Source: Planctomycetota bacterium (GTDB taxonomy: Bacteria; Planctomycetota; Planctomycetia; Pirellulales; UBA1268). From it: a DNA stretch of 64,000 bases. The stretch lies in the NCBI GenBank assembly GCA_003669605.1, contig QWOP01000042.1, positions 1 to 64,000 on the forward strand, written 5' to 3'. The translations under genes and the position numbers were made by a program. The notes under the pieces are model-generated. The model ran no database searches. It was not told the origin of the DNA and saw nothing but the letters and a program-made list of their open reading frames with translations. The first letter of the stretch is position 1. The number at the start of each line of letters is the position of its first letter. Shown in pieces: positions 27,068 through 30,995 of this stretch.

Positions 27068-28297
27068 TCATTGCTGGGGCCGGGAAGGCAGGGCGGCCGT
27101 CGGATACGCCCCCCTTGGTTGTACCGCCGGCTGCCAGGAAGTCGTGTGGATGGTGGGCTCAACAAGACGCGGAAACGCCCCTGTCGTGGTCCTCGGGCCG
27201 GGGCCAGGAACCGTAGGAATACCCGTACTCGAACCGACTGCCGGTGCCAACGGAATCGGCACCAGCCGTGGCTGGAGCGCCGGTGCCGATGCGGGCGACG
27301 CCGCAGCAGCGGCAGGAGCAGCAGGTGACTGGGGGAGCGCGGGCCCAGCGGCCGGCGGGGGCTGGATGGCAGGTGGTGTCGCCCCACCAGCACCGGTGGC
27401 TGCGGCCCCAGTTTGGCCGGTGGCCGGAGTACGGGGGGCTTCTTGAATCGGCCGGAGTGCCGGTGTGGGTGACAGGCCAGGTGGCGTGGTTGGCTGGAGC
27501 GCCGGAGCCCCTTGGAGTGGTGCGGCGAACGAACCGCTCTGCGGAACAATCTGGGGCTGGTAGGTGGGAGGGGCAGACGTGGCTGTGCCCTGAGGCAACA
27601 TCGGGGCCGCGATGCTGGTCTGGCCATTGACGATCTGCTGGGGAATATCGGCACCGGCTGCCCCCCAAGCCTGCGGTGTCGTCTGAATCGGTGCGCTAAA
27701 CGGACTGCTGGCGGCACCGGCCGGTCCAGGGGCCACCGTGGTGGCCGGCGCAAACTGTACGGGGGCTGCGGACGCCGGCTGGCCGTAGGTCGGCTGGCCA
27801 TACGCCGGCTGAGCGTATCCCTGCTGGCTCTGCCCGGGTTGCATCTGGACATACTTGGTCGAATAGACAGCGCGGTACTGCGTGTACGGCACGTTGACAG
27901 CCTGCTGCACGTAATTGGTGACCTGCTCCATGCACTCACGCGGGCACCCGGTACACGGATCTATCTCCGAGGATGGCTTGTAACTGGTCACCGGAACGCA
28001 GCGGTACTGAGTCCGGTAGGTCGTCTCCGGCACATAGCTCACCTGCTGGACCGGAACCATTACTGGGCTCGGGGGCGCGGCCATCGGTGCTGCCATCGGG
28101 GCCATCAGCGGAGCGGCCACCGGAGCGGCCATCGGAGCAACGGGGGCGATGGCGTAGGCTTGCGGAGCCTTCCGGAAGCAGGACTGCATTCCGCCAAACA
28201 AATCATTGAGGCAACACTGCGCCTGCCCCGCACGCGGATCGTGAACTGCCAGGGCGCCAGCTAGGCTCAGCAATCCGACCCATCGCCTCGTATTCAT
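27068..28297 (-). CDS. Pro/Ala-rich exported protein of unknown function
   Basis: The 409-residue protein opens with a signal peptide (MNTRRWVGLLSLAGALAV, cleavage near GQA-QC). Then come a Cys-containing stretch, a repeated PMAAP/PVAAP segment (about residues 45-75), and a Tyr/Val-rich region (VSYVPETTYRTQYRC, YVQQAVNVPYTQYR) that resembles the YTV-type repeats of planctomycete surface proteins. The last two thirds are low-complexity Pro/Ala/Gln. Six Cys residues could form disulfides outside the cell. It is probably a cell-envelope structural protein. The ATG at 28297 is chosen because it gives the signal peptide. Confidence 0.75.
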   Translation of the reverse strand: MNTRRWVGLLSLAGALAVHDPRAGQAQCCLNDLFGGMQSCFRKAPQAYAIAPVAPMAAPVAAPLMAPMAAPMAAPPSPVMVPVQQVSYVPETTYRTQYRCVPVTSYKPSSEIDPCTGCPRECMEQVTNYVQQAVNVPYTQYRAVYSTKYVQMQPGQSQQGYAQPAYGQPTYGQPASAAPVQFAPATTVAPGPAGAASSPFSAPIQTTPQAWGAAGADIPQQIVNGQTSIAAPMLPQGTATSAPPTYQPQIVPQSGSFAAPLQGAPALQPTTPPGLSPTPALRPIQEAPRTPATGQTGAAATGAGGATPPAIQPPPAAGPALPQSPAAPAAAAASPASAPALQPRLVPIPLAPAVGSSTGIPTVPGPGPRTTTGAFPRLVEPTIHTTSWQPAVQPRGAYPTAALPSRPQQ

Positions 28298-28650
28298 GAC
28301 TGACTCCTCGACTCGTTGATCCACTCGAACTGTCGAACAGATGTTCCCGCGCCAGCACCGGAGCACTCGGGTCTCCTCCGGTCCCAACGTTGGGAGGTGG
28401 CCACTGCCACCCAGAAATGCGGCAGGAACCCGTCGCCCGCGACGGTCCATTTCCGACTTCTGAATAAGCCTAGGTTCCGCTACAGCGTATTCCGGAAAAA
28501 TATCCGGGCTCGGGAATCATGAATTCCTATGAGCAGCGCGTCACAATCGTCACCACGCCTACAGCCCGTTCGCGAGACACGCGAAACTGCGGTGGAAGCA
28601 TCGACGGACCGTCGATTTGGACCTCGGATGAGGGGCGGACGTCCGACGTG
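28298..28650. promoter_or_regulatory. 353-nt gap with two palindromes, upstream of the Pro/Ala-rich exported protein
   Basis: No gene is supported. ATTCCGGAAAAATATCCGG near 28489-28507 and two hairpins nearer the ATPase stop are the visible structure. The promoter of the exported protein gene must lie here; I cannot pick clear -35/-10 boxes. Confidence 0.4.
28569..28616 (-). terminator. Pair of short hairpins downstream of the ATPase gene
   Basis: ATCGACGG/CCGTCGAT (28600-28607 with 28609-28616) and TTCGCG/CGCGAA (28569-28574 with 28580-28585) lie 35-80 nt beyond the end of the minus-strand ATPase gene. They may end that transcript. No U-run is present. Confidence 0.3.
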
Positions 28651-29301
28651 TCACAGGTCGCCGATCAGACGGCGACGACGCTCGAATCGATCGTAGAGAT
28701 CATCCAGTGCCCGGCGGATGTCGCCGCCGGAGTGACGAAAGGCTTCGGCAACGTCCTCGTCCCGGATCATGATGCCGTACCACTCATCGTGCCCAGGGAG
28801 CCGCGCGACGATCTCGGCAAGCAGCGACTTCGAGGTTCTGCAGATCACCAACACCGGGAGGCCAAGGGGGCGGTGCGATGTGACCACCAGCGCCACACTC
28901 CGCCACGCAGCTGTCCAGCGGACAAGACCGCGCCCGATGGCACCGAGGGCTTCCCAACTGTCGAGACATGCCACCCCTCCCCGCGGAAGGCGCCACACCA
29001 TCCGCAGGGCATCCGGTGTGGCGGCAGCTCCACGGATCCGGATCCGCTCCACCGGTCTCCCTTCTGATTCGATGCGTCCTGCGAGATGGACAAGAAGCGT
29101 CGACTTTCCCGAACCATGCGCTCCAACGATAGCAGCACTGCCGCCGAGAATGGCAAGGCGGGCGGCCAAGCCCCCGAGGTCGTGCAGTCGACCGGCCGCC
29201 GGATCGTGCGGTGCCAGGCTGGCAGGGCCGATGTAGCGAGTGGCGAATGGATTCGTCGGCTCCACCGTCCGGGTCGTACACAGATCGAATGCTGATGCCA
29301 T
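28651..29301 (-). CDS. Small AAA+-like P-loop ATPase of unknown role
   Basis: The 216-residue protein has a Walker A motif GAHGSGKST (about residues 61-69), a Walker B-like GGVACLDSWE (about 107-116), a sensor-1-like VVTSHRP and a C-terminal GGDIRRALDDLYD that looks like a sensor 2. It lacks an ABC signature. The canonical DE of Walker B is replaced by DS, so ATP may be bound more than hydrolysed. It is the last gene of the membrane/arrestin-like/ATPase cassette, 126 nt after the arrestin-like gene. I cannot name a function. Confidence 0.75.
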   Translation of the reverse strand: MASAFDLCTTRTVEPTNPFATRYIGPASLAPHDPAAGRLHDLGGLAARLAILGGSAAIVGAHGSGKSTLLVHLAGRIESEGRPVERIRIRGAAATPDALRMVWRLPRGGVACLDSWEALGAIGRGLVRWTAAWRSVALVVTSHRPLGLPVLVICRTSKSLLAEIVARLPGHDEWYGIMIRDEDVAEAFRHSGGDIRRALDDLYDRFERRRRLIGDL

Positions 29302-29334
29302 TTGGGCGAGTCATCACTGCTTCCACGGCACATG

Positions 29335-29421
29335 AACTGCCTGTGACAAAGCCGTCATGATCCTTCTTCCATGGAGTCAATAAAACCGGATTCTCACCTG
29401 CTTCGCACTCGCGACTGCCTC
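29335..29421 (+). repeat. Copy A of a dispersed intergenic repeat
   Basis: This stretch aligns with 60326-60412 when small gaps are allowed. The best part, 29399-29421, matches 60390-60412 at 21 of 23 positions (core CGCACTCGCGA). It lies between the arrestin-like gene and the ATPase gene. Confidence 0.5.
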
Positions 29422-29427
29422 GTGAGG

Positions 29428-29913
29428 TCAGACATAGAGCCTCTCCACGGCCCGCACAGGGATCGCTGCCGGCGGGACGCTCCCGAGTGTGAACACGTGC
29501 TCCGAAACATGGTCTCGTCCAGTCTCGAAGAACACCCGGAGCCTCACGCACCAGCGGATCTTCACAATCACCCCCTCGTAGGAAAGTGGGCTCGAGGGGA
29601 GTTGCACGGCAAAGGATCCCTCTGGCATCACGCCGGCGATGGTTTCCTGCGTGGTAAACCGCTCGAAGAAATGAACCCCCATATCCTCCTCGCCCTTGCC
29701 TTCGGTGTACCACAGGAGCGACCGTTCCATCGCCCTGGTGCGGTCCTCGGCGATTCCGCTGACTGCATATTCAACAGTCAGCCACTCGAGCGGTTGATAG
29801 CAACGTCCCGGATGACTGAACTGGAGCATCACCCGGGGAAAGGACGTTGGCCTGGCCTCCGGAGTGGCATCCCGTGGTTCCCACGACTGCGGGGATCGTG
29901 CGGCGTCACTCAT
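29428..29913 (-). CDS. Soluble arrestin-like protein of unknown function
   Basis: The 161-residue protein has no signal peptide or membrane segment. Beta strands alternate through the sequence, with a closing pattern (LPSSPLSYEGVIVKIRW then VRLRVFFETG) like the second half of arrestin/Vps26/Spo0M folds. The assignment is structural guesswork from strand pattern, not a clear family match. Its ATG overlaps the stop of the membrane protein gene by 4 nt (ATGA, 29910-29913), so the two proteins are made together and may bind one another. Confidence 0.65.
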   Translation of the reverse strand: MSDAARSPQSWEPRDATPEARPTSFPRVMLQFSHPGRCYQPLEWLTVEYAVSGIAEDRTRAMERSLLWYTEGKGEEDMGVHFFERFTTQETIAGVMPEGSFAVQLPSSPLSYEGVIVKIRWCVRLRVFFETGRDHVSEHVFTLGSVPPAAIPVRAVERLYV

Positions 29914-30995
29914 CCTGCTTCCTCCAACACTTCAGGGGGGGGTTCTGGCAGGACCGCACGGATCGATCCGGGAAAAACCACCACGGGAAACACACGCACG
30001 AATTCAGGCCAGCGGTCAGGCTGACCACGGACAACCACCCTCCATTGAACGGAATTGTTCTCCGATGCGAACGAATGCATCGCCCCCGGGGGGATCGTCA
30101 CGGTGACACGGGCCTCGAAGCGGCCTCCCGGCACCGCGCGCACCCGCTGCCAACCGGCAATCCTCTCCCTCCGCACAACCAGTCGCTGCGTGCGTGTATC
30201 TGTCCCTTGGCGGAACGTCGCTTGTTCCTCAATCTCCAACCCGAGTTCAATCGAACGAAAGAGCCCTGCTCCACCTTGTCCGAGGAGCACATCATACGAG
30301 GATCCGGGGACGAGCGGATGGTCAGAGATCTCGATCTGAGTCGGTCCCACGGACGTCGCGAGGACGACCGCTCTCACGAAGAAAACGACGCCGCCAACTC
30401 CCACGGCGACGAATGGCACGAGCAGGCACAGCAGGAGCCAGTCGATGGTGCCGCCGATCAGATCGGCGCCGGCGCCAACGGCGAGAACCACCACAACGGC
30501 GTTCCACAGCAAGGCAAACAATCCGAATCCGACGAGCGTCCAGTTCTCCGGGCTCTCCAGTGGGAGACGGTAGCGGAGCACCGTGCCAGGGGAATTCTCC
30601 AGGTTTTCACAGGGAGGAACCCCGGGGTGGCCAGGGGGATTCTGCGTACCCCGGGCCAGTCCTTTGACCAGCGCCAGCCCCCCCGCCGCACGGTGTTCCA
30701 GTGACTTTCCCCAGATCCTCACCACCCGCACCAAGCCCGAACCGCCAAAGGCCAACAACGCCACTGGAATCAGGAGGGTCAATAACCACATCCACCAGTC
30801 GTACCCCCGTTGGAGGACGACAACGTCGGGCTCGGCCGGCGCGTAGACGGCCGCCCCGGTCACCAACAGGGCGCCGAACACCAATCCAACGGAGATCAAC
30901 AACGCGTAGAAAAGCCCCTCGGCGAACGTGCCCCACGCCTGGGAGCCAGTCCGCCGATGCCCTCTTTTTTTGGCGAAGAATCGCGGTGGTCTCAT
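29910..30995 (-). CDS. Multi-span membrane protein with arrestin-like C-terminal domain
   Basis: The 361-residue protein has two hydrophobic helices near the N-terminus (about residues 20-45 and 65-85), a cytoplasmic-looking loop, two more helices (about 145-170 and 180-210), then a soluble beta-rich domain of about 150 residues ending with FVRVFPVVVFPG. The loop region is like DUF3592 proteins in feel, and the last domain matches the arrestin-like pattern of the next gene. The ATG at 30995 is chosen; a start at 31031 would add 12 residues. It is the first gene of the cassette. Confidence 0.65.
   Translation of the reverse strand: MRPPRFFAKKRGHRRTGSQAWGTFAEGLFYALLISVGLVFGALLVTGAAVYAPAEPDVVVLQRGYDWWMWLLTLLIPVALLAFGGSGLVRVVRIWGKSLEHRAAGGLALVKGLARGTQNPPGHPGVPPCENLENSPGTVLRYRLPLESPENWTLVGFGLFALLWNAVVVVLAVGAGADLIGGTIDWLLLCLLVPFVAVGVGGVVFFVRAVVLATSVGPTQIEISDHPLVPGSSYDVLLGQGGAGLFRSIELGLEIEEQATFRQGTDTRTQRLVVRRERIAGWQRVRAVPGGRFEARVTVTIPPGAMHSFASENNSVQWRVVVRGQPDRWPEFVRVFPVVVFPGSIRAVLPEPPPEVLEEAG

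Follow-up and report, generated by a model that had tools for sequence, protein, structure and literature searches.

Three adjacent genes in the window, a stretch of 64,000 nucleotides from a planctomycete contig, are predicted to encode a membrane protein that ends in an arrestin-fold lobe (A), a soluble protein that is a single arrestin-fold lobe (B) and a small P-loop ATPase of the AAA type (C). A fixed three-part unit, nearly universal in one planctomycete order, here combines the arrestin fold with an ATPase and an anchor in the membrane. We give about even chances to the reading that A, B and C form a membrane-tethered platform of the arrestin type that has two lobes split over two chains and is worked by the ATPase.

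Gene order and conservation

On the minus strand, transcription runs in the order D, A, B, C (Table 1), with the ATG of A at 30995 and the stop codon of C ending at 28651. An overlap of 4 nt between A and B had been claimed from the sequence alone. This overlap is real, as an ATGA common to both frames holds the TGA of A (29912-29910) and the ATG of B (29913-29911). Of 78 named loci, 15 show the same A/B overlap, and B and C overlap by 4 nt in 18 of 76. Searches of the window proteins against Pfam and NCBIfam gave no useful name for A and B, and P-loop matches only for C. Since all three frames are kept across an order, chance frames are excluded.

Table 1. Genes and further features of the locus, with positions in the window and the basis of each assignment.
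Feature	Position	Strand	Basis or remark
Gene D: alpha-CTD	31406-31098	minus	PF03118, E 8.5e-20
Gene A: membrane protein with predicted C-terminal arrestin-fold lobe	29910..30995	minus	AF2, Foldseek, VIA
DUF3592 insertion site in A, residues 50-66	30798..30848	minus	between helices 1 and 2; window retains C-terminal end only, PAEPDVVVLQRGY
Gene B: soluble, predicted single arrestin-fold lobe	29428..29913	minus	AF2, Foldseek, VIA
Gene C: small P-loop ATPase, AAA type	28651..29301	minus	motifs in 39-member alignment
Element upstream of E, ACCTAGGCTTATTCAGAAG	28457-28475	minus	similar sequence upstream of E in L212, L213, L214
Gene E: secreted proline-rich protein	27068-28297	minus	conserved neighbour of C

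We searched 59 related genomes and detected A and C in 54 each and B in 53. Of the 80 named loci, with titles such as Pirellulales, Planctomycetaceae and Planctomycetota, 76 have the three genes together and in this order; the gaps are mostly below 100 bases, and 4-base overlaps are frequent. The order D-A-B-C is observed where contigs allow, and D lies at a greater distance from the other three in remoter families. Across the class, B is close to universal among the members of the order that were sampled, and few genomes beyond the order have it. Weaker relatives of A occur phylum-wide, many of them matching by their DUF3592 part alone. Two genomes (G036 and G043) carry second, diverged A-B(-C) copies (L073 and L080).

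In one sister genus, three genomes (G021, G029 and G035) have no A, B or C at this place. Their D and E genes are adjacent, and nothing of the three genes can be traced in the interval; elsewhere, on a different contig, G035 shows a weak C-like match and nothing more. As the three genes are present across the order, a loss in the sister genus seems likelier than a later insertion. D and E persist where A-B-C is gone; thus, D and E are independent of A-B-C, and these three genes behave as one. The sequence-only reading had reckoned with genes that part in related genomes, and what we find is a set that stays adjoined and is lost jointly.

Neighbouring genes D and E

Gene D encodes a stand-alone C-terminal domain of the RNA polymerase alpha subunit, which is present in nearly all related genomes besides full-length rpoA-like frames; an alpha-CTD match is found in 59 of 59. 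The sequence-only reading had rightly placed the set beside this gene, which lies just before A. A role of the gene in the set is not supported, as D remains in genomes that have lost A-B-C. We therefore rejected D as a part of the unit.

The product of gene E is a secreted, proline-rich protein with tyrosine-rich repeats (YVPETTYRTQYRCVPVTSYKPSSEIDPCTGC), and E stands next to C across the family. We take it to recall the YTV cell-wall proteins of planctomycetes, and it is possibly a cell-wall protein itself. The element upstream of E (Table 1) is possibly a promoter. E is a conserved neighbour, yet it persists without A-B-C and apparently has its own upstream element, and it was thus likewise rejected as a part of the unit.

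Two arrestin-fold lobes

AlphaFold models of A and B were built on alignments of 64 and 63 sequences from named genome contigs. For A (pLDDT 84.8 overall and about 95 over the lobe), the model predicts helices at residues 19-50, 67-94, 150-180 and 186-216, followed by seven strands at 219-338 in a C-terminal lobe of residues about 217-342. The top Foldseek matches of this lobe were Spo0M (4.1e-8), ARRDC3 (4.3e-8) and TXNIP, and VIA aligned 129 residues with Vps26B (Z 12.2, rmsd 2.4). B is modelled as a seven-strand sandwich (pLDDT 90.7). Here, Foldseek returned the N-lobe of ARRDC3 (1.8e-6) and Spo0M (5.3e-6) at the top, followed by arrestin and Vps26B, and VIA aligned 114 residues with Vps26A (Z 12.4, rmsd 2.7); the 50 VIA entries listed for B are arrestin-clan proteins. 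According to these models, the C-terminus of A and the whole of B are each a seven-strand arrestin sandwich and belong to the arrestin clan by fold. The multi-span protein with an arrestin-like domain and the soluble arrestin-like protein of the sequence-only reading are both borne out, the former with four predicted helices; that reading had left room for other folds, and Foldseek and VIA place both beta domains in the arrestin clan. Many structural alignments of the A lobe also cover a part of the loop that joins helices 2 and 3 (residues about 121-145, which contain the conserved NSPG..L.YRLP), so that this part may pack on the lobe.

A PDB sequence search with A gave noise only. By sequence alone, B matched solved arrestins weakly with alignment A2 (E 0.008 at best) and not at all with alignment A5, and a profile comparison of the A lobe with B detected no sequence similarity; both results count against a two-lobe platform. 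At the curated Pfam cut-offs, neither A nor B of the window has an arrestin match. Of 41 B relatives, 11 matched Arrestin_N, the strongest with E 8.9e-10, and this model passes its curated cut-off of 24.9 bits in two of the single-chain relatives described below (L188 with 38.4 and L189 with 41.1). Across the phylum, Arrestin_N occurs in just six of 118 genomes and in none of 14 control genomes. We thus conclude that the Pfam model alone misses the arrestin family found here.

Lysine and arginine are abundant in the N terminus of A and in the loop at 95-149, and not in the loop at 51-66. From this pattern, the lobe of A is predicted to be cytoplasmic, which fits the positive-inside rule.

The DUF3592 domain of A

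In long relatives of A, the query matches break at residue 50/51. DUF3592 (PF12158) was detected in 29 of 40 A relatives and has no match in A of the window; besides the window's genus, other groups lack the domain. A tree built on the part of A that all share needs four DUF3592 changes, at least two of which are forced by well-supported branches. The domain is dispensable. By topology, it would lie outside the cytoplasm, and it could act as a signal input. The literature that we searched on DUF3592 gave a single passing mention.

Fusions of A and B

In several relatives, A and B are joined in one chain, and this occurs in both orders. Fusions in the order A-B were found at L093, L193, L194, L195 and L205; for instance, L093 holds A and B in one 602-residue frame via a repeated PPSAAE linker. 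The reverse order of lobe B, membrane segment and lobe A was found at L188-L192, L196 and L209. It is clearest in L209, with a lobe at 14-121, helices at 153-171 and 183-201 and a second lobe that extends to 349. The membrane segment directly precedes lobe A in both orders. As the two lobes are fused in both orders, they are probably partners and must share one side of the membrane, and as no evident signal sequence was seen in B, this common side is most likely the cytoplasm. Several of the fusions come from draft assemblies, which counts against our best reading. The fusion at L205 (2692-4905, plus strand) is a chain of 738 residues in which DUF3592 occurs twice, besides the arrestin lobes A and B. 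Soluble two-lobe arrestin-like proteins that have no predicted membrane helices occur in other planctomycetes (L208, L210 and L211).

A C-like P-loop gene adjoins seven single-chain genes (L188-L192, L196 and L197). In these C-like genes, Walker B is of the usual DE type and reads LIDEAQRL (DEFQRL in L191); they also carry NPFGEL close to the start, which is NPFRDL in L189, and, close to the end, an arginine followed by LY. AAA_22 is weakly matched by four of six of them.

Motifs of the ATPase

C of the window carries the Walker A motif GAHGSGKS and the Walker B motif VACLDSWE. In the usual Walker B of AAA+ proteins (hhhhDE), the glutamate directly follows the aspartate. Among the 39 aligned relatives of C, all have Walker A as GxHGxGK[ST], and Walker B is a hydrophobic run followed by aspartate (39/39), always serine or glycine, any residue and then, at position +3, glutamate in 38 and aspartate in one, so that it departs from the canonical hhhhDE. 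The Walker A lysine, the Walker B aspartate, the histidine of T-x-H and the sensor-2 arginine are each found in 39 of 39; the last of these is R196, which we tentatively assign to the lid by motif only. The small AAA+-like ATPase of the sequence-only reading thus stands as a P-loop protein with AAA-type features, and its Walker B is indeed altered; the alteration is the rule of the family, D-[S/G]-x-E, and no decay. As the motifs are invariant, a degenerate ATPase was ruled out, and by its sequence C looks like an active ATPase with a shifted glutamate, not a dead enzyme.

Between T-x-H and sensor 2, no arginine is conserved (at most 17 of 39), and residues 144 to 190 contain no conserved arginine or lysine in the 39-member alignment. 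In this alignment, C shows no conserved candidate for an arginine finger, so that an ordinary ring with arginine finger is not supported, which counts against our best reading. In comparisons with Pfam, one window-type C relative passes the AAA_22 cut-off (30.6 versus 27 bits), whereas the best NACHT score among the matches listed for six C members scanned was 22.8 versus a cut-off of 26.7 bits.

A proposed platform and its alternatives

The reading of A-B-C as an ATPase-worked platform draws on the arrestin folds, the gene order, the loss as one block, the fusions of A and B, the C-like neighbours of the single-chain forms, the invariant motifs of C and the lysine and arginine pattern of A. 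We propose that the lobe of A would sit at the cytoplasmic face of the inner membrane, anchored by a transmembrane hairpin, and that B would dock onto it. C, from the same operon, would bind the A-B platform, and its binding or hydrolysis of ATP may switch the shape of the platform or its grip on a client; such a switch would be the simplest role for C, and the membrane scaffold with a nucleotide-regulated switch that the sequence-only reading suggested likewise stays an inference. In most relatives, the DUF3592 domain of A on the opposite side of the membrane could feed in a signal, and the window's genus would have dispensed with it.

The same parts might serve other ends. A scaffold of the envelope or of cell division, in which a Spo0M-like platform would organise the growth or budding of membranes and the timing of its assembly would fall to C, seems to us rather unlikely: Spo0M is the closest bacterial structural match, and in Bacillus it co-precipitates with FtsZ and ZapA (PMC5325327). 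The conserved position of E, with its secreted and possibly cell-wall product, downstream of C points in the same direction; however, E survives the loss of A-B-C with what appears to be its own upstream element, and one genus lives without the three genes. We consider it unlikely that the platform is an adaptor that, in the manner of alpha-arrestins and Vps26, recruits particular membrane proteins that are to be removed or relocated, with C as a remodelling motor. The top VIA matches are Vps26 and alpha-arrestins and an adjoining AAA-type ATPase would suit a remodelling step, but a common fold does not show a common role, and the only recurrent neighbours found besides C are the helicase, D, E and a few farther genes, with no Vps35-like partner recognised in a non-exhaustive annotation. 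The link of Spo0M to division proteins, like the work of alpha-arrestins and Vps26 as adaptors, offers a lead and not evidence.

That three neighbours have separate tasks and are held together by co-transcription alone is quite improbable given the repeated fusions of A and B in both orders and the loss of A-B-C as one block. A conflict or defence system of the STAND or NACHT kind with C as its nucleotide switch is in our view slightly less probable still. Some C members have weak NACHT and nSTAND matches and the D-G-x-E form of Walker B recalls NACHT, but the PADLOC models gave nothing apart from a weak P-loop match, and a gene set that is usually present in one copy, at a fixed place and near-universally in the order shows the pattern of core genes. 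With no support from PADLOC, a defence system was rejected.

Planctomycetes are already noted for unusual internal membranes. A more far-reaching version of the platform reading, which we regard as a long shot, would be an ATP-driven arrestin machine of bacteria: a split arrestin, built into the membrane, that would choose its membrane clients as eukaryotic arrestins or Vps26 do. A dedicated AAA-type ATPase, whose catalytic glutamate is displaced, would assemble and reset it. In any case, A-B-C is a little-known bacterial form of arrestin that can be tested directly. Its natural one-chain and two-chain versions can be compared and offer a handle on arrestin folds outside eukaryotic receptor biology, and the unit does the same for an ATPase whose Walker B is unusual.

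Comparison with known systems

The literature that we searched, with most subscription journals and all bioRxiv preprints outside its scope, contained no description of the A-B-C unit and, among the papers listed, nothing relevant on arrestin in Planctomycetes. As far as this literature goes, there is no earlier description of a dedicated ATPase combined with two lobes, one built into the membrane and the other on a gene of its own.

Arrestins are known chiefly from animal and yeast cells, in which they act as adaptor proteins. Spo0M (PF07070), a bacterial and archaeal member of the clan, shares the arrestin fold in bacteria, and both lobes of the unit count its structure 5cl2 among their best matches. 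Both lobes of Spo0M are in one soluble chain, and we know of no membrane-built lobe or partner ATPase gene described for it. In the literature searched, Spo0M is the bacterial representative of the arrestin clan (PMC2515105). The alpha-arrestins (ARRDC3 and TXNIP; PF00339/PF02752) have the same fold, and it is their Arrestin_N model whose cut-off is passed by L188 and L189; however, they are eukaryotic soluble two-lobe adaptors, whereas the lobes of the window are on two chains, one of them membrane-built. Vps26 of retromer and retriever has the top VIA Z for both lobes, tied with alpha-arrestins, but the partner in the window's unit is a P-loop ATPase, and no Vps35 or Vps29 partner was recognised among the neighbours, whose annotation is non-exhaustive.

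For the other parts of the unit, the DUF3592 membrane proteins (PF12158) share their domain with most A relatives; in contrast, A of the window lacks it, and the arrestin lobe is outside the Pfam model. The AAA_22 ATPases (ExeA/TniB-like) resemble C in their P-loop and lid arginine, and the C-like genes beside the single-chain forms have the DEAQRL Walker B, whereas the family of the window's C reads D-[SG]-x-E, and its alignment shows no conserved candidate for the arginine finger. Unlike canonical two-lobe arrestins, Spo0M and Vps26, the unit of the window thus carries its lobes on two genes, and single-chain forms exist in its relatives.
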